DNA of 48,042 nt. Origin: Opitutia bacterium (lineage in GTDB: Bacteria; Verrucomicrobiota; Verrucomicrobiia; Opitutales; Seribacteraceae). Positions 30,102 through 43,495 of this stretch are shown one piece after another (within the stretch, counting starts at the first letter, position 1; every line of letters begins with the position of its first letter). The stretch is from NCBI GenBank assembly GCA_002694035.1, contig NZKY01000025.1, positions 1 through 48,042 on the forward strand, given 5' to 3'. The translations under genes and the position numbers were made by a program. The notes under the pieces are model-generated. The model was not told the origin of the DNA. It did not search any database and saw only the letters and a program-made list of their open reading frames with translations.

Positions 30102-31433
30102 TTAGCTGAGGCCTTTAACTTCCCAGCCTTTTCTGTATTTTCTTTTTACTAACTCTGTCGCCTTTTGATTATTTTTAAAAGCCAGTTTTGGAGCATCCCA
30201 GATTAATTCCTCTTTTGGGAATCTTGTTGCAATTCCTCCCAAGAGAACAGTCTCCGTAAGCGGACCAGAATAGTCAAAGTTTGCTGAAGGTAATGGACCT
30301 TCACCTCTTACGGCATCAATAAAACTATGCCAATGATGCTGGCTTGCGACCACTTCCATTTTAAAATCTTTAAATCGTTTTTGAGGAAATAATTTAGGCA
30401 TTCCAACGTGAGGAATTAGCATAGTCCCTTTTGTCCCAACAACCACAGAACCTTGGCTAGGTAATTTTTGTCCTTCAACTAAATTTACAATATGTTTGGG
30501 TGGTTTGGCTGATCCATCATACCAAGTAACAGGAAGAGTTTTATTTTTGGAATACTGGTTTTCAGGAAATGAGTAGTGAATGATAGCATCGAAACCCCAA
30601 TTGTCCTGATTTGGCTTTGGACCTTCTGATCTTAGTGATATGGGATAAGTTAAACCTAAAGCTTTAAAGGTCGGATCATAAATATGGCATCCCATATCTC
30701 CGAATGTTCCTGTTCCATAGTCTAAACGTTTGCGCCATTGTCCGGGATGATAATATTTATTAATAAAATTTGTGTAGGGGGCTGGGCCGATCCATGCATC
30801 CCAATCAAATCCTTCTGGAATAGGATCTTTTTTATTAGGTTTTGGATTTGAATCACCCCACCTTTTACCGCTGAAAGAATGAGCCTCTACAATTTTACCT
30901 ATTACGCCATCGTGGACCAGTTTTACAGCAGTTCGATATTCTTTGGCAGAATGTATTTGAATACCCATTTGGGTAACAATCTTATTTTCCTTTGCATATT
31001 CAGTTAGCATTCGAGCTTCAAAAACATCATGGCTTAGAGGTTTTTGGCCATACACATGGAGTCCTAGTTGCATTGCAGACATTCCCATACAAGCATGAAG
31101 GTGGTCAGGTGTTGATACATTAACAGAATCAAGTTTTTTTCCTTCCTCATCGAGCATTTCTCTCCAATCAGAATATACTTTTGCACCCTTGAGTCTTGCT
31201 TGTGCCTGCCTTCTTCGATTCGGGTCTACTTCAGCAACTGCGATCAAATCAACATTTGGATGTGTTTTTATTTGACCAAGATCCGTCCCTGCCATTCCAG
31301 ATCCGCCAAAGCTAGCATGACTTACCCGGTCATTTGGAGAAGTTTTTGCCCATGATGTTGATGCAATATAAGGAGCCAATATTGCACCAGATATTTGTTT
31401 AATATGATTTCTTCGTGATTGCGAGAGATTCAT
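30102..31433 (-). CDS. Tat-exported Gfo/Idh/MocA family oxidoreductase
   Basis: The 443-residue protein begins with a twin-arginine-type leader (SRRNHIKQISGAIL at residues 6-19) and then an NAD-binding Rossmann fold (SHASFGGSGMAGTDLG). The usual EKP motif is QKPLSHD, keeping the catalytic-region Lys but changing Glu to Gln. The C-terminal domain has long insertions typical of the secreted Planctomycetes-Verrucomicrobia subgroup. Such proteins are thought to oxidise or rearrange sugars outside the cytoplasm; substrate unknown. It is the last gene of the sulfatase cluster, 94 bases after the sulfatase gene at 31528-33072. Confidence 0.88.
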   Translation of the reverse strand: MNLSQSRRNHIKQISGAILAPYIASTSWAKTSPNDRVSHASFGGSGMAGTDLGQIKTHPNVDLIAVAEVDPNRRRQAQARLKGAKVYSDWREMLDEEGKKLDSVNVSTPDHLHACMGMSAMQLGLHVYGQKPLSHDVFEARMLTEYAKENKIVTQMGIQIHSAKEYRTAVKLVHDGVIGKIVEAHSFSGKRWGDSNPKPNKKDPIPEGFDWDAWIGPAPYTNFINKYYHPGQWRKRLDYGTGTFGDMGCHIYDPTFKALGLTYPISLRSEGPKPNQDNWGFDAIIHYSFPENQYSKNKTLPVTWYDGSAKPPKHIVNLVEGQKLPSQGSVVVGTKGTMLIPHVGMPKLFPQKRFKDFKMEVVASQHHWHSFIDAVRGEGPLPSANFDYSGPLTETVLLGGIATRFPKEELIWDAPKLAFKNNQKATELVKRKYRKGWEVKGLS

Positions 31434-31527: not shown

Positions 31528-33072
31528 TTAATCGCTCTCAAAAAACTTGTTTTTTAGATATGAAAGCCTTTTTTGAAGCCTTTTTATTTCAGGGTTTAAA
31601 ATTTTTTTTCCGAACAAGTTATTCAATTCCATGGGATCATTTTTTAAGTCGTAGAACTCCCATTGATTAAACTCATAAAAAGAAATTAATTTATATCTTT
31701 CATCACGAATGCCTTCATGCCTTGGCATATTGTATGGCCCTCTTTTTTCAGGTGTTCCACCATCAAAATATTGATATAATATATCTTTTCTCCATGGAAT
31801 ATCGGAATCGTTTGAAAAAAGAGGTTGAAGGGCCAATCCATGGACCGTATTAGGTACAGGTAAGCAAGCTGCCTTAAGCAATGTAGGGGCAAGATCTATG
31901 TTCTGTACTAATTTTACAATCTTTGAACTAGGAGAAATGGTCCCAGGCCAACGCATGATTAGCGGTGATTTAAAGCTTTCTTCATACATCCAACGCTTTT
32001 CAGCCCATCCATGTTCCCCAGTAAAAAAACCCTGGTCTGAACTGTAGATTAACAGAGTATTTTTAGACAGTTTATTTTGATCAAGATAATCTAGAATCCG
32101 TCCTATTTGGTCGTCTAATCCATCTATACAGCGAACATAATCTTTAATAAAGCGTTGATAAATGTAGAGTGATTTTGCTTTACCTTCTAACTTGTTCTCT
32201 TCGATTAACTTTCGGTACCGTAGGTTTCTTTGGTCATAAGCTGAATGCCAGGCTTTTCGTTGTTTTAAATTCATCTCAGATAGGAATGGTGGGCGAATTT
32301 TTGGATTTTTATTTATTTCGTCCATTGTTGGAGCAATATTTAAGACATGCCCCTTCATTCCCTTCAGTGCCATCCATGTTTTCGATACAAAAGAGGAACG
32401 CGTAGAAAAATTATCAAAAAATGTATTTGGTACTGGAAATTCGATTTCATCATAGCCTTTCATACGATTAATTGGGGGTAGGCGATGAATATGTGGGACT
32501 TTGTATTGAGCACACAGTAAGAAAGGCTTTTTTGGATCTCTTTTTTTCAACCAATGAAGGGCTTTGTCGGTGATGATCTTAGTGGAATGTCCTGTTACTT
32601 TACTTTCACCGGCAGGTGAAAGAAAAGTTGGATTAAAATAAGATCCTTGACCTCCTTTACCGGAAAGAATTTCCCAGCTTTGAAATTCATCGGTGGGATT
32701 TCCCTTGAGGTGCCATTTTCCAATTAGCCCAGTTTGGTAACCTGATTTTCCTATTTCTCTTGTGAAGACCCATTGTTTACCATTCCATTTGGAACTGTTT
32801 CCTATCACTCCATTTGACAAGCTGTGTTTGCCAGTAAGGATGGCTGCTCGACTAGGGCAACAGATTGAATTCACATTGAATGAATTAGTAAAAATTGCAC
32901 CCTCTCTGGCTATGCGATCAAGATTTGGGGTGCTGTTGATTGATCCGGGATAAGCACCAATGGTCCGTAGTGCATGATCATCGCTTAAGAGAAAAAGAAT
33001 ATTCGGTCTTGATTCTCCATATGAGGAAATTAGTAAGAAAGTGAATAGCGATTGCAGATTCAAAATTTTCAC
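31528..33072 (-). CDS. formylglycine-dependent sulfatase (S1_8/S1_11-like)
   Basis: The 514-residue protein has a short signal segment (MKILNLQSLFTFLLISSYG), metal-binding DDH at 31-33, and the sulfatase motif C71-C-P-S-R75, where C71 would be converted to formylglycine. GKWHL and ILSGKGGQGSYFNP (as in GlcNAc-6-sulfatase or sulfamidase type sulfatases) and SSDQGFFTGEHGW are present. Ending with WEFYDLKNDPMELNNLF, it has a complete length. The start is GTG. It follows the sulfatase-GH50 gene by 11 bases. The formylglycine-generating enzyme is not in this window. The actual sulfated sugar is uncertain; an N-acetylglucosamine-type substrate would fit nagB in the cluster. Confidence 0.9.
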   Translation of the reverse strand: MKILNLQSLFTFLLISSYGESRPNILFLLSDDHALRTIGAYPGSINSTPNLDRIAREGAIFTNSFNVNSICCPSRAAILTGKHSLSNGVIGNSSKWNGKQWVFTREIGKSGYQTGLIGKWHLKGNPTDEFQSWEILSGKGGQGSYFNPTFLSPAGESKVTGHSTKIITDKALHWLKKRDPKKPFLLCAQYKVPHIHRLPPINRMKGYDEIEFPVPNTFFDNFSTRSSFVSKTWMALKGMKGHVLNIAPTMDEINKNPKIRPPFLSEMNLKQRKAWHSAYDQRNLRYRKLIEENKLEGKAKSLYIYQRFIKDYVRCIDGLDDQIGRILDYLDQNKLSKNTLLIYSSDQGFFTGEHGWAEKRWMYEESFKSPLIMRWPGTISPSSKIVKLVQNIDLAPTLLKAACLPVPNTVHGLALQPLFSNDSDIPWRKDILYQYFDGGTPEKRGPYNMPRHEGIRDERYKLISFYEFNQWEFYDLKNDPMELNNLFGKKILNPEIKRLQKRLSYLKNKFFESD

Positions 33073-33083
33073 GATACTTCTCT

Positions 33084-36000
33084 TTAGTTTTTTAATAGTT
33101 CAAAGAGTATACTTTCGGTGCTTTGTTTTGTTTTGTTGCGGGCTGGGTACATTTTTTTGGTTGCTTTCGACACAACATTGACAAGTTCAGCATAAGCTTT
33201 TCCTGCGACATCAATGAAACCACATTGATGGTTTTCACGATCTTTTCTGCCTGCAGCAGATTGGTCAATCCACTGGAACCAGTGTACGCCAACGAACCTA
33301 GGATCAGCTAAGGCTGAAGCAAGGTAATGTGCAAAGGATAAAGCTCTTTGTCTTTGATCCCAGGAGCCGGACAACCCTGGGCTAGGCACCCCACGATCAA
33401 CTGCACCAAAATGAAATTCACTGGAAAGAATAGGAATATCTGCATCTGCTGGCACTTGCCATGAACGAACTCTGGAGTCATACACATTAACCGAAAACAC
33501 ATCGACAGAACCGAGTGCTCCACGACCAAGTACATTTGGGCCCCGATGTGTACGACAACCTAAAAAGAGGGTGCCGGGAAGCTCCTTTTCGATTGCAGCT
33601 TTACACTTTTGAAAGAACGCTTTTACGAACGGGAGATAGAGTTCATCCAAATCTTTAACTTTTGCGGGAGAATTATTTTTACCCCTTTTTTTCAATTCAT
33701 TGACTGCCCAAATTTTAGTCGGATGGTCTTCGGGAAGTTTTTCAATTGTTTCCCCAATTCGGTCTGGCCATTCCAACTCATTACCCATGAAAATTCCCAG
33801 ACAAAAAGGATCGTTTTTTGCCCATCCCAGTTTTCTTAGGTTTTTTTCCAAGTCTGATTGAAAATCTGTTCGGAAAGGGGAGGGGAATTTTCTGTGTCCA
33901 CTGCTTTGCCACCAAATGGAAGAGATTAATGTGTATGGGGTTTTTCTATCTTTTTGCAATTTTTCATCTGACCAGCAGGCTAGGGTGTTTAGTCCCCACG
34001 CCCGGAAGCGATCATGTGTTCCCTGATTGACCGTTTCCTCCCATTTTTCTCCGAAGTAACGCCTATAGTTTAAAGCTGGGAAATTCACATACTGCCTTCC
34101 TCCTGTTTTTCGTAACCCCGTCCATTTTAGGTAGTCCTTTTCCCCGGGGATGTACTTAAAAAAGGGAGTGTTCGTTCTCTTGGGAATGGCAAGCGTTTCG
34201 GCTCGGTTTCCGGTAAGGCAAGGTCCTACAGAAAAGAATAAATAACCATCCGGGTCAATTAGCCACCATTTTTCATTCACTTTTTGGGTGCGGAATCGCC
34301 CGGTTGCTTTCATTTTTGGACCATCAATCCATCCACCGAATTTACTCAGTCTCTTATCCTTGGCTTCTTTTTTAGCTTGTTTGAACTCTGATTGCATCGT
34401 GTTCCTTGCTTCCTCTAGGTTGTTCGCTTTGCCTGGCCAATGAATTGCACTGACCTGTCCAAGCTCATCGAGGTAGGGAAGACTTTCCAATTGTTTATTG
34501 ATCTCCTCATTATTTTGCCAACCTAGAACTGGTGCACCAATGATTGCATTGATTTTTCCGGATGAGGAAGTGAGATCCAAAATGATTTCACGGATATCTT
34601 CTGGGAAGAACCTCCTCCAATGTACTCGATGACCATTTGGTTTCGCGAGTTGATCCTTAAAAAGATCCGAGCCCTGATAGCGATCTTCAATCATAGGAAA
34701 TGGGAACCCCAAGGTGGTTTTTTCCCAACTCGGAGCTACAGCAAATCCTACGGCATGGTGCGACCAACTCGTCAGGTTTCCATTGTTCAATCTTCCTTCA
34801 ATGGTGGTGATACCTTGTTCCCAGTTTTGAATGGGAATGCCGACAAGTTTGTAACCACTAATATTCCATTGCTCTCTCGCTTTCGGACACAGTGAAATCC
34901 TCATGGGGCTTTTTCCTTCAACCTTCCATTTATCTCCCCAATTTTCGACTTTGTTTCCCTTGGGTATTTTAATCTGACAAAGTAGATTTGCTTTAGGGGA
35001 AAAAAGTTGTTTGGAATGGATTTTGGGCTTTGTTTGATTTTTTTCTCCAGTTTCTAGAAGAAAAGGGTCCGTACTTCTGGATGAATTTAAAATTTTCCTC
35101 AGCTCTGAACTCATTCGTTTTACCCGATTAAGTTGAGATTTTTCTGCAATCTGGTTTTGGCTTTCCATGGGATCATTTGCCAGATTATACAATTCAATGG
35201 GTTTTAGATCTTTGGTGCATATTAATTTCCATGAATTTTCCCTCACAGACTTCTTTGATTGTTGTCCATGGTAATTTCCATTGTTCGCTTGAATAACCAT
35301 GGACGAACGAGTATTGGCGTCTTTTTTTCCAAGCAGTGTTTCTAAGAATGATTGGCTGTCTAAACCATCAGATTTTTGCATCGGCTGTAGAGTAATTTCA
35401 GCAAATGTTGCATAGAGATCCTGCAGACCAATTAATGCATCTGAAAGGGTACCCGGTTTAATAGGTGAATGTTCATTCCCATTTCCCCATCTGGCGATAA
35501 AGGGAACTCGATGACCTCCTTCGTATACCTGTGCTTTACTTCCTCGAAAGCCTGAGTTGGAATTGTGCCCGCCCTTGTGCTTTCCTGAAAGACCACGTGA
35601 TAAACCCCCATTATCGCTGGTGAAGATAATCAGTGTTTTTTCCAATTCACCATTCGCTTGGAGAGCTTCAATTATTTTCCCTAGGCTTACATCAGCCTCC
35701 ACCAACATATCCAGGTGAGCGTCGATCGATGCACCTTTTACTTTTTCCCCCATCAGTTCATCAGGAGGGGTATGAGGAACATGACAAGACTGGCTCCAAT
35801 AATACATGAAGAATGGTTTTCGTATTCCCCTCTCTTTATTATTTTCAGAATGTCTTTTCAGAAAAGATAATGCTTTTTTGGTTAAAACTGGACCCGCCAT
35901 GGACGAATCCCAATCGGGTGAACCAAATCCATCTGCTTCAATGACTGAATTACCGTAAGTACCAGTTTTCCACTCCCTGAGCTGTGTAGCATCACCAATA

Positions 36001-36584
36001 AGTATTCCATTTTCAATTGCTATATAAGGAGAGCCCTGAATCCCTTGTGGCAGTTCATAGGCATAATCAAAGCCAAGGGATGCAGGAGTGTTCTCAACTT
36101 TGCGTTCAAAATCAAAATCTTTAAAGCCACCCTTCATACTAAGTTTGGGTTTACCCGTTGATTTACTGAATACTTTTCCTCCCAAATGAACTTTTCCGAG
36201 AAAGGCAGTATGATAACCAACTTTTTTCATCAACTGACCAACAGTTTGTTGCCCCTTCAAAACCTGAGATGGCATATTAAACAACCAAGTGCCGTTCGGA
36301 TTTCTCCCACGCCATGGATAATTCCCTGTCATAACACTGTAACGAGTGGGAGCACATACGGCGGCTGGTGAATGGGCATCGGTGAAAGTAATTCCTGCTG
36401 CAGCTAATTTTTCTAAATTGGGCATCGATACCTTGCTGTTCTTATTGTAAACCCGTGAATCTCCAATTCCCATATCGTCCATTAGGAAAACAAGAATGTT
36501 GGGGGGAGCCATTATTCCTCCTAATGCAAAAGAACAGACAACAGGAAGTAAGCTGATTATTAGACAGGCTATGCTATGAAACAT
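33084..36584 (-). CDS. sulfatase fused to a GH50-like glycoside hydrolase
   Basis: This unbroken 1166-codon gene joins two enzymes. After a signal peptide (about 1-22), residues 28-510 form a sulfatase with metal residues D36/D37, formylglycine motif C77-A-P-T-R81, GKVHLGGKVF and TSDNGGLSRG, ending NDPMESQNQ. Residues about 530-720 form a beta-sandwich region. From about 790 a glycosidase TIM barrel follows, with WWLIDPDGYLFFSVG, acid/base E936 in FMGNELEW and nucleophile E1056 in LSSEFHFGAVDRG, the pattern of GH50 beta-agarases (clan GH-A). It probably removes sulfate and cuts the same exported or surface-bound polysaccharide. The exact linkage is unproved; other GH-A families remain possible. 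Confidence 0.87.
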   Translation of the reverse strand: MFHSIACLIISLLPVVCSFALGGIMAPPNILVFLMDDMGIGDSRVYNKNSKVSMPNLEKLAAAGITFTDAHSPAAVCAPTRYSVMTGNYPWRGRNPNGTWLFNMPSQVLKGQQTVGQLMKKVGYHTAFLGKVHLGGKVFSKSTGKPKLSMKGGFKDFDFERKVENTPASLGFDYAYELPQGIQGSPYIAIENGILIGDATQLREWKTGTYGNSVIEADGFGSPDWDSSMAGPVLTKKALSFLKRHSENNKERGIRKPFFMYYWSQSCHVPHTPPDELMGEKVKGASIDAHLDMLVEADVSLGKIIEALQANGELEKTLIIFTSDNGGLSRGLSGKHKGGHNSNSGFRGSKAQVYEGGHRVPFIARWGNGNEHSPIKPGTLSDALIGLQDLYATFAEITLQPMQKSDGLDSQSFLETLLGKKDANTRSSMVIQANNGNYHGQQSKKSVRENSWKLICTKDLKPIELYNLANDPMESQNQIAEKSQLNRVKRMSSELRKILNSSRSTDPFLLETGEKNQTKPKIHSKQLFSPKANLLCQIKIPKGNKVENWGDKWKVEGKSPMRISLCPKAREQWNISGYKLVGIPIQNWEQGITTIEGRLNNGNLTSWSHHAVGFAVAPSWEKTTLGFPFPMIEDRYQGSDLFKDQLAKPNGHRVHWRRFFPEDIREIILDLTSSSGKINAIIGAPVLGWQNNEEINKQLESLPYLDELGQVSAIHWPGKANNLEEARNTMQSEFKQAKKEAKDKRLSKFGGWIDGPKMKATGRFRTQKVNEKWWLIDPDGYLFFSVGPCLTGNRAETLAIPKRTNTPFFKYIPGEKDYLKWTGLRKTGGRQYVNFPALNYRRYFGEKWEETVNQGTHDRFRAWGLNTLACWSDEKLQKDRKTPYTLISSIWWQSSGHRKFPSPFRTDFQSDLEKNLRKLGWAKNDPFCLGIFMGNELEWPDRIGETIEKLPEDHPTKIWAVNELKKRGKNNSPAKVKDLDELYLPFVKAFFQKCKAAIEKELPGTLFLGCRTHRGPNVLGRGALGSVDVFSVNVYDSRVRSWQVPADADIPILSSEFHFGAVDRGVPSPGLSGSWDQRQRALSFAHYLASALADPRFVGVHWFQWIDQSAAGRKDRENHQCGFIDVAGKAYAELVNVVSKATKKMYPARNKTKQSTESILFELLKN

Positions 36585-36985: not shown

Positions 36986-38827
36986 TTAATTTTTTTGTTT
37001 TTTATGTTTATGGAATTCGGGCCAGGTAAGTTTTCCGTCTTTATTACTGTCTGCAGTTGGATTCTTTTTTAAGTATGAGTTTTTCCAATGTTCATTTTGT
37101 AGGACTCTTTTTTCCTCTTCGGTCATTTTCCTATGGGCATTGAGTTCGGCCCATGACAGAGTTCCGTCCGCATTCGTATCAGCAGACGAGTTCTTCTTAA
37201 AATACTGATCCTTCCAATACTCATTACTTTTTGGTTTTTCTGGAATACTTTCAGGAATGATTGATAAAAGTTGCTCACGAAATTCGGTTAATTTTTTCTT
37301 AAATTTTGAATTCTTAGCCAAATTATTCCATTCGTGGTCATCTTTTGCAGTGTGATAGAGTTCTTCCTTTCCATTCTCATAGCGAACATATCGCCAATCT
37401 TTAAATCTAAGAGAATAATTCTGATAAGCAGGATCATAGTATTGAGCCCATTTGTAAAGTGCGGTGATGGCAAACTCAGGTCCCTCCCACTTTCCATTTT
37501 CCGGATCTTCAAGGAATGGTTTCATAGAAAATCCGTCTAGTGGACGACCTTGTTCATTTTTCATGGTATTAGCAGGTAAACCGCAAAGATCCAGCAGAGT
37601 GGGGTAAAGATCCACAAGTGATACAGGATGCTTACATTTTTTACCGCTGATTGAAACGCCCGGTGCTCGAATTATTAAGGGTACCCGAGTACTCTCCTGC
37701 CAAAGAGAATTCTTGTAGAGATAATCTTTCTCACCATTTCCCCATCCATGATCGCTGGTGAATATCACAATCGTGTTCTTCTCTAGTTCGGTTTCTTGGA
37801 GAGTTTCCAAAATCTCTCCCACCAAATCATCGACTGATGCGACTGATGCAAGATAGGCCTGAATGAATTTTTTTAAGGCCAACTCGCGATCTCCACCATA
37901 AGATGCAATGAGGCTGTCATACATTTTGGTTCCCCGGTCACCACTGCGATCATCTTCCTTTGAGGTTACGGTATTTTTAAAAGTATCTTCTGCATCTGAT
38001 TTAAGAATTTTTGGCAGTTTAATATATTCTATGGGGAATAGATCAAAGTACTTTTGTGGCACAATCAGAGGAGTGTGTGGCCGTACAAAACCAACACCCA
38101 TGAAGAAGGGTTTTTGTGTTTTTGATTCAGCCAATTCATTGAGTCGTTTGACAGCCCATTGGGCATTGAGTTCATCTCCAGTTGGGTCACGGTTATCATC
38201 CGAAATGTATTTCATTGCTCTTTGCTTTCTCCATCCTCCGGTTATCCAGCTGTAGTTTTTTCCGGTATCAGATGATTTTTTATTCGTGACATTTTCCAGT
38301 GGTCCAAAGTTTCCATCAATAATTCCAAAGTCATCCCTGAATGGCTTGGGGACGCTCAGGTTGGGTATTTTGTCTTTTCCATCAAATAAAAAGGGACCGT
38401 AGTCGGAAGGATGTCCAAATTCTTTCCATTCCTGATGATCTCGGTTATGCATTACTTTACCTGTACCCAGGGTATGGTAACCGTTTCTTCCAAAATGATC
38501 CATCATGGTCCTAGAGTTCTTGAGGATTTCATTCTTATCCCAATCCTCAAAACCAAACTGTTGAGACGTATGCGGATAAATTCCGGTTGCAAAGCTTGCC
38601 CTTGAGGGGTTGCAAATAGGAATGTTGCAGTGGGCCTGGGTAAAAGAGACTCCACTTTCAATCAGCTTACGTATATTAGGTGTCTGTGTCTGAGGATGCC
38701 CTCCCAATGTTTCAATATAATCATTCAGATCATCGCATACGATCAGTAAGATATTGGGTTTATCTGCAATAACATATAGGGCACTTGAAGCAAAAAGTAG
38801 TAGATACCTGATTTTAATTAAAAGCAT
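36986..38827 (-). CDS. iduronate-2-sulfatase-like (S1_7) sulfatase with duplicated EF-hand tail
   Basis: The 613-residue sulfatase has a signal peptide (MLLIKIRYLLLFASSALYVIA), DDLND (32-36) metal residues, formylglycine motif C72-N-P-S-R76 and GTGKVMHNRD. LNDYIETLGGHPQTQTPNI resembles S1_7 enzymes. At the end are two copies of an approximately 40-residue unit: 536-574 (EYWKDQYFKKNSSADTNADG..) and 579-613 (EHWKNSYLKKNPTADSNKDG..), each holding an EF-hand-type calcium loop (DTNADGTLSWAE and DSNKDGKLTWPE). The tail may anchor or stabilise the enzyme in calcium-rich seawater. The target sugar is unproved. Confidence 0.9.
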   Translation of the reverse strand: MLLIKIRYLLLFASSALYVIADKPNILLIVCDDLNDYIETLGGHPQTQTPNIRKLIESGVSFTQAHCNIPICNPSRASFATGIYPHTSQQFGFEDWDKNEILKNSRTMMDHFGRNGYHTLGTGKVMHNRDHQEWKEFGHPSDYGPFLFDGKDKIPNLSVPKPFRDDFGIIDGNFGPLENVTNKKSSDTGKNYSWITGGWRKQRAMKYISDDNRDPTGDELNAQWAVKRLNELAESKTQKPFFMGVGFVRPHTPLIVPQKYFDLFPIEYIKLPKILKSDAEDTFKNTVTSKEDDRSGDRGTKMYDSLIASYGGDRELALKKFIQAYLASVASVDDLVGEILETLQETELEKNTIVIFTSDHGWGNGEKDYLYKNSLWQESTRVPLIIRAPGVSISGKKCKHPVSLVDLYPTLLDLCGLPANTMKNEQGRPLDGFSMKPFLEDPENGKWEGPEFAITALYKWAQYYDPAYQNYSLRFKDWRYVRYENGKEELYHTAKDDHEWNNLAKNSKFKKKLTEFREQLLSIIPESIPEKPKSNEYWKDQYFKKNSSADTNADGTLSWAELNAHRKMTEEEKRVLQNEHWKNSYLKKNPTADSNKDGKLTWPEFHKHKKQKN

Positions 38828-38931: not shown

Positions 38932-40350
38932 CTAGCTTATAATATCCTTAATTATATGAGCTTCTTCATCCACCCCGGTTAGCCTAAAATCCAAACCTTG
39001 GTGTTTATGAGTAAAAAATTGTGAATTAATGCCTAATTGATGAAGCATAGTGGCATGAAAATCACGGACGTGGACCACATTTTCCTCTGCATTGTAACCA
39101 AGTTCATCTGTGTTGCCATAGGAAATGCCCCCTTTAATTCCACCACCCGCCATCCAGATCGAAAATCCTTTAATATGGTGATCTCTTCCATTTCCCTGAG
39201 CCATGGGTGTACGTCCGAATTCTCCACCCCATACAACAAGGGTGTCTTCAAGCATTCCCCTTTGTTTTAAGTCCTGCACCAGGGCAGCGGAACCCTGGTC
39301 TACAAGGTTGGCAGTTCTGGGAACATTAGTTTTCACTCCACCATGGTGGTCCCAACCGCGATGATAAAGATGGATGAAGCGGACACCCTTTTCTGCTAGT
39401 CGTCTTGCAAGTAAGCAGTTGCTGGCAAAGGAACCGTCTCCTGGTTTGGCACCATACATATCCAGAATATGCTTTGGTTCTTTTGAAACATCCATAAGTT
39501 CTGGCACGCTTGCCTGCATACGAAAGGCCATCTCATATTGGCTTATTTTCGTGGAAATTTCAGGATCGCGTAGGGAGCGGTTACCGATTTGATTTAATTG
39601 ATTTACGGAATCAATCACGGAACGCTGGTCTTTGTTGGTTACGCCATTAGGGTTACTCAAATAAAGGACAGGGTCTCCCTTACTGTGGAAATGTACGCCC
39701 TGATATTTGCTAGGAAGAAAACCACTGTGCCATTGCCGAGAGGCAATTGGTTGGTTTTGACCACCACCAACTGAAGTCAGTACAACGAAGCCGGGTAAGT
39801 TATTCGTTTCAGCACCTAATCCATAGAGAACCCAGGATCCCATACTTGGCCGACCTGAAATCTGAGTGCCGGTGTTCATATAGGTATGGGCTGGGTCATG
39901 ATTAATTTGTTCGGTGGTCATTGAACGAATGATACACATGTCATCTGCGATCTCACCAATCTTTGGAAAAGCTGAGCTAAAATACTGACCGGATTTACCC
40001 CATTTTTTAAATTCGAGCTGTGGCCCAAAACATTTTAACTGTTTGCCCTGAAGTTGGGCAATAGGTTGTCCCTTGGTTATGGATTCTGGCATGGTCTTAC
40101 CATCCATTTCTTTAAGTTTTGGCTTATAATCAAAAGTCTCCAAATGGGAGGGGCCGCCAGCCATACATAAAAAAATCACTCGTTTGGCCCTGGGGTTGCC
40201 GCTCAACTTGGCATGGGTTGGCAAATTGGCGGGCCATGCCTGAGAGTTGGACAGCACATTTCCAGAGAGCATGCTGGACAGAGCTGTGGAGCCTATGCCT
40301 ACCGTTGCCTGATTTATAAATGTGCGTCGATTAACAAAAGATGGATTCAT
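38932..40350 (-). CDS. DUF1501 domain protein, Tat-exported
   Basis: The protein belongs to DUF1501, a family of unknown biochemistry that almost always accompanies PSD1/PSCyt cytochrome proteins in Planctomycetes and Verrucomicrobia. The ORF is open from 40425, but the Met at 40350 (MNPSFVNRRTFINQATVG) is preferred: it gives a twin-arginine-like leader and begins 11 bases after the upstream gene's stop rather than inside it, leaving about 472 residues. RVIFLCMAGGPSHLETFDYKP, HDPAHTYMNTG, HLYHRGWDHHGGVKTNVP and VVWGGEFGRTPMAQGNGRDHH are family motifs with likely metal-binding His/Asp residues. Confidence 0.85.
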   Translation of the reverse strand: MNPSFVNRRTFINQATVGIGSTALSSMLSGNVLSNSQAWPANLPTHAKLSGNPRAKRVIFLCMAGGPSHLETFDYKPKLKEMDGKTMPESITKGQPIAQLQGKQLKCFGPQLEFKKWGKSGQYFSSAFPKIGEIADDMCIIRSMTTEQINHDPAHTYMNTGTQISGRPSMGSWVLYGLGAETNNLPGFVVLTSVGGGQNQPIASRQWHSGFLPSKYQGVHFHSKGDPVLYLSNPNGVTNKDQRSVIDSVNQLNQIGNRSLRDPEISTKISQYEMAFRMQASVPELMDVSKEPKHILDMYGAKPGDGSFASNCLLARRLAEKGVRFIHLYHRGWDHHGGVKTNVPRTANLVDQGSAALVQDLKQRGMLEDTLVVWGGEFGRTPMAQGNGRDHHIKGFSIWMAGGGIKGGISYGNTDELGYNAEENVVHVRDFHATMLHQLGINSQFFTHKHQGLDFRLTGVDEEAHIIKDIIS

Positions 40351-40360
40351 GGTTATTGAA

Positions 40361-43300
40361 TTAAAGTCGGGCTGTAGTTTCGTACATATTGAGAATACTC
40401 CTGGATATGCTTGTCCAGGCAGCAAGTTCTGAAACTTCTATTGAAGGATCATATTTGCTCATTCCCGTCTTCAGAAGATCCATGGCGGATTTATTATCTT
40501 CTTTGTATCTTTGTCTTTGATTTTTGAGTAACTTTTGAATGACTTTAATCTCATCATCACTAGGTTCGCGGGTGAGTGCATTTTGAAATGCGAATGAGAT
40601 TTTTTCTTCATCGCTTGCTTGAGCACTTTTAAGAATTTTTTCGGCAAATACTCGGGCTGCTTCAACAAATACAGGGTCATTAAGAAGGACGAGTGCTTGT
40701 TGTGGAATATTGGACCTTGGTCTTTCGGCCGCACATTCTTCACGGCTTGGTGCATCAAATGCAAGCATAGCGGGATGTGTAAAACTTCGGCAGTGAAAAG
40801 TGTAAAGTCCTCTCCTGTAAAGATCCTTTCCTTGTCCAGCCTGCCATTTGCGTGCAGGGAAATTTAAATGTCTCCAATAACCTTCAGGCTGGTAAGGTTT
40901 TACACTTTTTCCACCGATATCATTATTTAATAAACCACTTATGGATAGAGCGGAATCGCGTACAAATTCAGCATCCAGTCTAAATCTTGATTGTCTAGCA
41001 TAAAGACGATTAAGTGGATCCGCCTTAGCCAATTTTTCTGAAGGTATTGAACTTTGTTTGTAGGCATCCGATGTGACAAGAGAACGAATTAATTTTTTTA
41101 TATCCCATCCATTATCCCGGAATTGTGAAGATAAGTGGTCAAGAAGTTTGGGGTGGGTTGGTGGCTCACCTTGCCCGCCCAAGTCTTCAAGTCTGCGCGA
41201 AAGTCCATATCCAAAAAAGATTTTCCATATACGATTGGTGAAAGCTCGTGCGGGTAGGGGATTGTCTTTTGATACAACCCACTTTGCTAAATCGAGTCTG
41301 TTTGCTTTTCGGTTTTCCAGTTCCAATCTTCCTAAAAATTCGGGAATGGCTGGATCGACCACTTCCCCGGATTCATCGAGCCAATTACCGCGAGGAAGAA
41401 TTCTTACCATTCTTTTATTTCCCGATTGAGATACGAGCATGGATCGGAAGGTCTTTTTGTAATTTGTTATCGCATCAACTGCTGTTTTTACTTCTGAGTC
41501 AATTTTCTCAATCTGGTCATTCAAGTCTTTAACCTGATCTCTAAAACTTATTATGTCTTTAGGTGCTTTTGCGTAGATATAATTAATGAAGTGAGACTTA
41601 AGAATTTCTTTTTCTTTATTCTTACGATCATTTTCCAATTTTTTGGATAAGTTCTGAATATTACCCGGCAAAGATTTATCATTCTTGGCAATGGTAGTCC
41701 ATGTTTTGAGGGAAAGTTCCGGATTATTGCGAGGATCAATTTCTGAAATTACACCGACTTTGTCCCAATAAATGGTTCCATCCCATTGTGTAAAAGCTAT
41801 TCCGTTTACTTTTGCTTTTCGTTTAAGGCCAACTTTCTTCGCTTTTACTGATAAACGAACCCATTTACCCAGTTCGGGCAGTGGACCCATTTTTACCCTC
41901 GATACAGTATTTTCTCTACCATAATGAATGAGGGATTCACCCCAATAGGCACGATGGTCCCAGTTTCCATCGTTGAACTGAAGCATAACCTGCTTGGGTG
42001 GATTTTGGGGGTCTAAAAAAGCGTATGCAAAAAATTCATCATCTTCCGTTATAACTTCATGAGGATTTTTTGAGTTGAGGAAAAAATGTTGATTATTACC
42101 GACGCCGGTTCGGACAAATGATTTTGAACCTGAAAAGACTGGATAATCCGCGAGTTTCCATTCGCCATGAAGCTGTGCATTTAAAGGAGAGGAATCTTCT
42201 ACAAAAATCCTTTCGAATTTTTCAATCTGATCCCCTGCAGGCTCCTCGTAATTATAATTTTCTGATTTTTTGACAAGTTTAGCTTTTAATTGATTTCTCT
42301 TTTTCTCAAGGCTTGGCTTTTTTTCAATTCTGATTTTTTCAGCTTCTTTTTTGCTTAGTTCGAGATCGGATAATTTCTTTTCCTGCTCAGGAGACGGTAG
42401 GAAAAGATTTGGATTTCTTCTCCCAACCGGTCTTTCCTGAATATCTGAAAAAAAGGCAGCCAACGAATAGAAATCCTTGATTGTAAAGGGATCATATTTA
42501 TGATCATGGCACTGAGCACAGCCTGTGGTGGCACCCAGCCAAACGACTCCAAAGTTCCGAACTCGGTCGGCTTGATAAATCGCAAGGTATTCCTTAGCTT
42601 GGGCACCACCTTCTTCGGTAGTCTGCAGGAGACGATTGTAACCAGACGCAATTTTTTGCTGTTTGGTTGACTTAGGTAATAAATCCCCTGCCAAGTTTTC
42701 GATCACAAACTGATCATATGGCATGTTTTTATTGAAAGCATTGATTACATAATCCCTGTAAGCGGAAACTTCCATGAAAACATCACTGTGGTACCCGATT
42801 GTGTCTGAATAGCGAACAAGGTCCAACCAATGAACCGCCATGCGCTCTCCGAATCTTTGATCAGATAAGAGTCGATCAACTAGTTTTGTGTATGCGTTTT
42901 TCGTGTTATCTTCCAGGAAAGATTTGGCTTCCTTCGGAGTAGGGGGCATCCCTAACAGATCAAAAAACAGGCGTCTTAACTGGGTAATTTTATCAGTTTG
43001 CTGGGAAAATTGAAATGGCTCATTTTCAATTCTTTGAGCAAGGAACCGATCCACCGGATGGGAGGATTTCGATTTGATTGACTTAGTGGGAATATCGGGA
43101 TTTGCAATCGGAAGGAAAGACCAGTGTTCTTCATAATTCGCTCCTTGCTTTATCCATTCTTCAAGAATTTCTTTTTGCTTTTTATTTAATCTTTTTCCAG
43201 TCTCAGGTGGAGGCATAATTTCATCCTTATCATCGCTATGAAGACGAAAAACTAATTCACTGTCCTCGGGTTTTCCGGGAATTATAGCAGAATAACCTCC

Positions 43301-43495
43301 AAGGTCTTTAATTGCTCCCTCTGATAAGTCGAGTCTTAACCCGGCTTCTCTTGTACTCTTATCCGGGCCATGACAGTGAAAGCAATATTCCGAGAGAATC
43401 GGACGAACTTCATTTGTAAAGTCAACCTTTGCATCTGATGATTGAAAGCAAAAAAGAAAGAGAAAGCATAAAAAGCAGTGGGTTGGTTTGGGCAT
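40361..43495 (-). CDS. PSD1/PSCyt1/PSCyt2 (DUF1549/DUF1553) cytochrome-type protein
   Basis: The 1044-residue protein has a signal peptide (MPKPTHCFLCFLFLFCFQSSDA) and a cytochrome c motif C38-F-H-C41-H42 in the PSCyt1 domain. DUF1549 follows (WLDLVRYSDTIGYHSD, and a second CxxCH in TTGCAQCHDHKYDPF near residue 330). A charged helical linker and a LamG-like beta-sandwich occupy about residues 370-620. DUF1553 (PSD1) follows from about residue 700 (FTNRIWKIFFGYGLSRRLEDLG to the end). Such proteins are very common in Planctomycetes and Verrucomicrobia with a still unknown redox role, often near sulfatases. It forms an operon with the DUF1501 gene. Confidence 0.9.
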   Translation of the reverse strand: MPKPTHCFLCFLFLFCFQSSDAKVDFTNEVRPILSEYCFHCHGPDKSTREAGLRLDLSEGAIKDLGGYSAIIPGKPEDSELVFRLHSDDKDEIMPPPETGKRLNKKQKEILEEWIKQGANYEEHWSFLPIANPDIPTKSIKSKSSHPVDRFLAQRIENEPFQFSQQTDKITQLRRLFFDLLGMPPTPKEAKSFLEDNTKNAYTKLVDRLLSDQRFGERMAVHWLDLVRYSDTIGYHSDVFMEVSAYRDYVINAFNKNMPYDQFVIENLAGDLLPKSTKQQKIASGYNRLLQTTEEGGAQAKEYLAIYQADRVRNFGVVWLGATTGCAQCHDHKYDPFTIKDFYSLAAFFSDIQERPVGRRNPNLFLPSPEQEKKLSDLELSKKEAEKIRIEKKPSLEKKRNQLKAKLVKKSENYNYEEPAGDQIEKFERIFVEDSSPLNAQLHGEWKLADYPVFSGSKSFVRTGVGNNQHFFLNSKNPHEVITEDDEFFAYAFLDPQNPPKQVMLQFNDGNWDHRAYWGESLIHYGRENTVSRVKMGPLPELGKWVRLSVKAKKVGLKRKAKVNGIAFTQWDGTIYWDKVGVISEIDPRNNPELSLKTWTTIAKNDKSLPGNIQNLSKKLENDRKNKEKEILKSHFINYIYAKAPKDIISFRDQVKDLNDQIEKIDSEVKTAVDAITNYKKTFRSMLVSQSGNKRMVRILPRGNWLDESGEVVDPAIPEFLGRLELENRKANRLDLAKWVVSKDNPLPARAFTNRIWKIFFGYGLSRRLEDLGGQGEPPTHPKLLDHLSSQFRDNGWDIKKLIRSLVTSDAYKQSSIPSEKLAKADPLNRLYARQSRFRLDAEFVRDSALSISGLLNNDIGGKSVKPYQPEGYWRHLNFPARKWQAGQGKDLYRRGLYTFHCRSFTHPAMLAFDAPSREECAAERPRSNIPQQALVLLNDPVFVEAARVFAEKILKSAQASDEEKISFAFQNALTREPSDDEIKVIQKLLKNQRQRYKEDNKSAMDLLKTGMSKYDPSIEVSELAAWTSISRSILNMYETTARL

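Follow-up and report, generated by a model that had tools for sequence, protein, structure and literature searches.

Can a single enzyme take the sulfate off a galactan and also cut the chain that carried it? The question is raised by a gene on contig NZKY01000025.1 of an Opitutia bacterium (assembly GCA_002694035.1), whose positions 1 to 48,042 form the stretch of DNA analysed here, hereafter the window. The gene joins an S1 sulfatase domain to a GH50 glycosidase domain in an arrangement that is conserved in other genomes. An earlier note on this DNA had described a sulfatase fused to a GH50-like glycosidase in a single frame of 1166 codons, with a formylglycine motif and a pair of catalytic Glu residues. 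All of these lie at the places it gave, and the fusion is backed by sequence, fold and conservation. The note gave no strand; the frame is on the minus strand. The features of the gene are as follows.

33084..36584, minus strand: S1-GH50 fusion gene, one uninterrupted frame (1166 codons, 1166 amino acids)
36519..36584, minus strand: N-terminal hydrophobic leader, residues 1-22 (most hydrophobic 15-residue stretch starts at residue 5)
35088..36506, minus strand: S1 sulfatase domain, residues 27-499 (Pfam PF00884 and SGSH_C)
36342..36356, minus strand: formylglycine motif C77-A-P-T-R81 (C77 and R81 invariant in the aligned fusions)
36033..36038, minus strand: Q183-G184, at the position of Asp-Arg in 6s20, 9bau and 9bas (invariant in the aligned fusions)
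34485..34994, minus strand: CBM-like N-terminal domain of GH50, about residues 531-700 (predicted model aligned with GH50 agarases)
33132..34367, minus strand: GH50 (beta/alpha)8 barrel, about residues 740-1151 (sequence and structure alignment with GH50 enzymes)
33777..33779, minus strand: E936, predicted acid/base (alignment with 4bq2/4bq4; invariant)
33417..33419, minus strand: E1056, predicted nucleophile (alignment with Aga50D; invariant)

The two halves of the protein

The leader, judged by its hydrophobicity, is a probable signal peptide. In the profile search of the two halves proposed by the earlier note, the sulfatase half was recognized by Pfam: PF00884 matched residues 27-396 (E 7.4e-42, 144.1 bits against a cut-off of 25) and SGSH_C residues 349-497. 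C77-A-P-T-R81 fits the C-x-P-x-R formylglycine motif of S1 sulfatases. Fusions from other contigs (see below) were aligned with the window protein (alignment A1, 24 rows: 23 of the 24 fused loci and the window, the truncated L044 being excluded). C77, R81, K131, H133, D324, N325 and K350, together with E936 and E1056 of the GH50 half, are invariant in A1, and D36 and D37 are kept at 90% or more (one row begins after both). We take K131, H133, D324, N325, K350, D36 and D37 to be S1 active-site residues.

The five best matches of this half among solved structures were 6s20, 9bau, 7oze, 9bas and 7ozc, at modest scores (149-175 bits). Two of them carry subfamily names, 9bas (S1_15A) and 9bau (S1_15B), and we presume that 6s20, 7oze and 7ozc also belong to S1_15. 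The lead of this subfamily is narrow, the lowest of the five matches reaching 149 bits and the next match 146. S1_15 enzymes are exo-acting on galactose- or N-acetylgalactosamine-6-sulfate (PMC12549532, PMC10154612), and their recognition triad consists of a His and an Asp-Arg dyad (PMC10154612). Where 6s20, 9bau and 9bas have D-R-V-P, the fusion has Q183-G184; the alignments with 7oze and 7ozc stop short of the site. The Asp-Arg of the three structures would correspond to the published dyad, and with this assignment the replacement by Gln183-Gly184 suggests that the fusion lacks the S1_15 recognition triad. Kinship of the fused sulfatase with the sulfatases encoded beside unfused GH50s was considered and rejected, those four being merely 26-28% identical to it. 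Its best-scoring paralogue in the genome is 33% identical over residues 21-505.

The C-terminal half went unrecognized by Pfam and NCBIfam models, all NCBIfam matches falling below their cut-offs. On the other hand, a phmmer search of residues 513-1166 against solved structures returned 5z6p (AgWH50C), 4bq2/4bq3 and 4bq4/4bq5 (Aga50D) and 6xj9 (PfGH50B) at E 7.5e-49 to 4.8e-48 (5z6p 7.5e-49, 4bq2 2.1e-48), followed by 5t3b at 2.4e-14. Up to E 0.1 the matches comprised five distinct sequences, all GH50. E936, within FMGNELEW, aligns with a Glu in 4bq2 and a Gln in 4bq4, which points to a role as acid/base. E1056, within LSSEFHFGAVDRG, falls on the Glu of the Aga50D stretch IIGEFHIGA and is presumably the nucleophile. 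Counted on the alignments, the two Glu residues are 120 residues apart in the window protein and 161 in Aga50D. The spacing is shorter because Opitutales proteins lack an insert; in a comparison of five Opitutales fusions, four planctomycete fusions and Aga50D (alignment A2), the planctomycete fusions and Aga50D have the insert and the Opitutales fusions do not.

The predicted structure of the C-terminal unit (model m1f1c3de57307; predicted local distance difference test (pLDDT) 83.2, predicted template modelling score (pTM) 0.87) aligns with GH50 agarases from model residue 24-25, that is, protein residue 530-531. This model contains both the CBM-like domain and the (beta/alpha)8 barrel of the GH50 fold. 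The middle domain, for which the earlier note had proposed structure prediction, is thus the CBM-like N-terminal part of the GH50 fold, and model and structure alignment rule it out as a new module. Aga50D, AgWH50C and PfGH50B share the whole fold and the Glu pair with the fusion, but they are only 21-26% identical to its GH50 part and their solved chains carry no sulfatase.

Distribution of the fusion

In scanned genome contigs, 49 loci were found: 24 fused, two cut by contig starts (L060, L070), two remnants (L076, L083) and 21 with unfused GH50. The fused loci, in which a single frame holds both halves (L039-L059 and L061-L063, L044 and L047 being truncated at contig ends), come from Opitutales, Opitutia or Verrucomicrobia/Verrucomicrobiota (14 loci) and from planctomycetes (10 loci). 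Several related records presumably derive from open-ocean plankton, to judge from sample names. In A1, the 13 Opitutales/Verrucomicrobia rows are 66-93% identical to the window protein, with a full-length copy at 93% (L039), and the 10 planctomycete rows 50-55%. An assembly error, which the earlier note had named as a possible source of the join, is ruled out by the occurrence of one frame in 24 of the 49 loci; nor was another glycosidase family or the lack of a Glu pair found, since the matches are to GH50 and the pair is invariant.

Within the order, the GH50 part was matched in 54 of 223 genomes and the fusion in eight, with both halves at loci L009-L016 (open reading frames of 1178-1234 amino acids in seven; that of G001 is cut by a contig end). 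Within the phylum, residues 480-760 were matched in 16 of 387 genomes, the sole fusion being that of the window. Three further long frames among these 16 had no sulfatase match: those of G440 and G543 are tandem GH50s, and that of G541 has GH50 at residues 916-1427 and no match to the sulfatase half. The remaining frames are of 454-889 amino acids.

In a tree of GH50 sequences, 24 fusions formed one clade (support 100/100) with a planctomycete and a verrucomicrobial half, and two unfused GH50s of the order, L018 and L020, stood next to it (100/95). Deep forks were weak and long branches were flagged, so that weight is placed on the fusion clade and the L018/L020 grouping. Left out were L001, L009-L016, L044, L060, L070, L084 and L085, as well as matches that span fewer than 300 residues. 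The tree also lacks the top-scoring of the unfused matches, the GH50 of G119 (L017/L096; 34% identity over 673 aligned positions), in whose place a longer reverse frame had been taken.

Variant architectures were also seen. In planctomycete loci L057 (568-5520) and L058 (4032-9062), a second sulfatase domain follows the fusion (1650 and 1676 amino acids); in L057 Pfam gave two sulfatase stretches, the second at 1218-1538, and in L058 the second sulfatase was found by blast match. L070:1-1848, cut at the contig start, fits the same S1-GH50-S1 plan. Tandem GH50-GH50 frames occur at L098:1336-5985, L116:282-4391 and L117:1870-5442 (1549, 1370 and at least 1191 amino acids), and at L098 a sulfatase frame overlaps just upstream of the tandem.

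Neighbouring genes and the rest of the genome

The fusion gene is flanked by the following genes.

30102..31433, minus strand: Gfo/Idh/MocA oxidoreductase, second gene downstream (resembles BT_2158-type glycoside 3-dehydrogenase)
31528..33072, minus strand: sulfatase B, S1_11-like, 11 bases downstream of the fusion (solved-structure matches)
36986..38827, minus strand: sulfatase A, upstream neighbour with an EF-hand-like tail (Pfam)
38932..40425, minus strand: DUF1501 protein (Pfam, E 1.6e-160)
40361..43495, minus strand: PSCyt1-PSCyt2-PSD1 protein (Pfam)

Upstream of the fusion, sulfatase A has a relative in each of the 10 Opitutales loci whose flank is long enough (78-88%) and in eight of nine testable planctomycete loci (best match 47-54%; none in L058), several of which have other sulfatases between this relative and the fusion. 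Its likeness to solved enzymes is weak, the best match being 6hhm at 138 bits. EF-hand-like tails (DADTNxDGxLSW type) are present at the C-terminus of sulfatase A and in planctomycete fusions L051 and L061; perhaps they serve anchoring or secretion. Relatives of sulfatase B adjoin the fusion in six of the 12 Opitutales loci with downstream flank (75-82%), and none above 31% was found at the 10 planctomycete fusion loci. At L083 the remnant abuts the end of a sulfatase B gene. The top structures for sulfatase B were 7p24 (a mucin-desulfating sulfatase) and 5g2v (an N-acetylglucosamine-6-sulfatase), then 7lha (an exo-L-galactose-6-sulfatase) and 7snj. S1_11 recognizes N-acetylglucosamine-6-sulfate or, in aquatic members, L-galactose (PMC10154612), and acts ahead of GH29 and GH2 in porphyran breakdown (PMC12316285).

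The Gfo/Idh/MocA protein scored 299 bits against the model for BT_2158-type glycoside 3-dehydrogenases, under the cut-off of 750. Relatives of the PSD1/DUF1501 pair, which lies upstream in the window, occur near planctomycete fusions too. The unfused GH50 of G220 (L020) clusters with a sulfatase, a GH16 and two GH29 genes; a sulfatase and two GH2 genes accompany the one in G119. By gene content these sets resemble agar/porphyran loci.

Elsewhere in the genome (G000, 93% complete), the whole fusion protein gave 65 matching stretches (the fusion included; some genes give two). GH50 occurs once, and the one GH16 match is laminarinase-like. A second glycosidase-sulfatase fusion was noticed on G000:C45 (L112:2-3544), with GH3 (312-882), an Fn3-like part and, from 1031, a sulfatase of which about 105 residues are present before the contig ends. 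On G000:C119, a second S1_11-like sulfatase (L114:6758-8287) shares 43% identity with sulfatase B; clustered with it are a laminarinase-like GH16, a DUF3500/3-keto-disaccharide hydrolase protein and two further sulfatases.

Proposed function and its alternatives

With some reserve, we consider it probable that this is a bifunctional and probably exported enzyme, directed at a sulfated galactan, which desulfates and then clips one and the same chain. After export and oxidation of C77 to formylglycine, the S1 domain would take a sulfate ester off the sugar at the non-reducing end or one close to it. The unblocked end would then be accepted by the GH50 domain, presumably retaining, which would cut a beta-1,4-galactosidic bond and free a short oligosaccharide. 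The clip would expose the next sulfated unit for repeated rounds, with help from sulfatase A and often sulfatase B. Export, exo action, the order of the steps, the position of the sulfate and an agar- or porphyran-like chain are what we infer.

Among the solved-structure matches of sulfatase B was PDB 6hr5, named Alpha-L-rhamnosidase/sulfatase (GH78), which we take to be P36 of Formosa agariphila. P36, like the fusion, holds an S1 sulfatase and a glycosidase in one protein, and its domains act in consecutive steps of the ulvan pathway, S1_25 desulfating a terminal rhamnose that GH78 then removes (PMC8511951). P36 thus joins GH78 and S1_25 for ulvan, whereas the present protein joins GH50 and an S1_15-like sulfatase; by analogy, the desulfation and subsequent cleavage of one chain that the earlier note proposed seem reasonable. 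Porphyra-associated planctomycetes also have sulfatase genes joined to glycoside hydrolase domains, one with two sulfatase domains, and in the available parts of that paper GH50 is not named as a partner (PMC4807772). Sulfatase-glycosidase fusions are therefore already known as a kind (PMC8511951, PMC4807772). The earlier note knew of no characterised enzyme with the S1-GH50 pair, in agreement with our search of the open-licence literature (most subscription journals lie outside it), which found no description; in the Verrucomicrobiota diatom-bloom paper PMC8857213 neither 'GH50' nor 'fused' occurs.

The proposed bifunctional role draws on the identified domains, the invariant catalytic residues and the retention of the fusion in Verrucomicrobiota and Planctomycetota. 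Relatives of sulfatase A are conserved alongside, and sulfatase B is of a kind that includes exo-L-galactose-6-sulfatases of porphyran (PMC12316285). The nearest unfused GH50s (L020 by tree, G119 by score) cluster with a sulfatase and GH29, GH16 or GH2. The eight FGE-domain matches in the genome, the precedent of P36 and the exo action described for most GH50 agarases (PMC8551122) point the same way.

Several points weigh against it. Substrate and activity are predictions from sequence, fold and conservation. Since the Asp-Arg of three related structures is missing, the target sugar is not readable from the sulfatase half, and the full-length predicted structure (pLDDT 65.1), which was left unused, is too poor to reveal how the two active sites are oriented to one another. 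In the tree, a long branch separates the fused GH50s from the three solved agarases included. No match to GH2 (PF02836), GH29 (PF01120), GH35 or GH42 was found in the genome by searches that were positive in control genomes (GH117 was not searched), and the usual porphyran finishing route is thus absent or replaced; at 93% completeness single genes may be missing, and the loss of four families together is less likely. The term 'agarase-type' in the earlier note accordingly stands for the family, given the GH50 structure matches, but not for the activity. An oxidative finishing route through the Gfo/Idh protein and a 3-keto-disaccharide hydrolase, a domain present elsewhere in the genome, is conceivable. 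Within the genus, seven of 12 genomes have a match and five have none, and L076:12101-12524 and L083:2590-3192, near sulfatase A, retain only 80-120 residues from the start of the fusion. Some relatives are losing the module, and the enzyme is thus dispensable. L083 and the intact L043 carry one isolate name, so that the bin may mix strains.

A plainer reading, in which an ordinary beta-agarase GH50 is paired with a sulfatase for the D- or L-galactose 6-sulfate of porphyran, agar or another red-algal galactan, appears rather doubtful. The GH50 family, the 6-O-sulfatase subfamilies S1_15 and S1_11 (PMC12549532, PMC10154612) and the porphyran/agar-like clusters of related unfused GH50s would suit it, but the four missing families, the laminarinase-like nature of the sole GH16, the change from Asp-Arg to Gln-Gly and the separate clade of the fused GH50s do not. 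The two domains might instead each work on their own, at separate places in a mixed sulfated polysaccharide, and be joined for joint export. The GH3-S1 join in the same genome is in keeping with such a tether, as are the many probable multi-domain sulfatases of two planctomycete genomes (34 and 21 genes, judged by length; PMC4807772); taking into account that both phyla have long kept the pair, next to relatives of sulfatase A, we find it unlikely.

Quite improbable, in our view, is a keratan-sulfate-like or other non-algal glycan, of which GH50 would cut Gal-beta-1,4-GlcNAc (galactose-N-acetylglucosamine) or a similar bond and the sulfatases would take the 6-sulfates. Sulfatase B does score 7p24 and 5g2v above 7lha, and a Glucosamine_iso gene lies 8 kb away, but around the 24 fused loci no such gene was detected (E 1e-20, limited flanks), a similar frame being noticed by eye near remnant L076 alone. 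We know of no GH50 that acts on such chains.

Should the bifunctional reading hold, the substrate probably carries a sulfate as well as a beta-galactosidic bond for the enzyme to act on, since both activities fall on one chain, and this narrows the search. We tentatively regard it as possible that the pathway serves a sulfated galactan from outside red seaweeds, with a GH50 acting off agarose, a sulfatase subfamily with a changed sugar pocket, and oxidoreductases finishing in place of GH2 and GH29. If GH50 does act beyond agar, metagenome counts of GH50 taken as agar degradation would need rereading. Verrucomicrobiota and Planctomycetota are rich in sulfatases whose substrates are mostly unassigned, and the fusion would provide a compact, conserved marker for sulfated-galactan turnover by both phyla.

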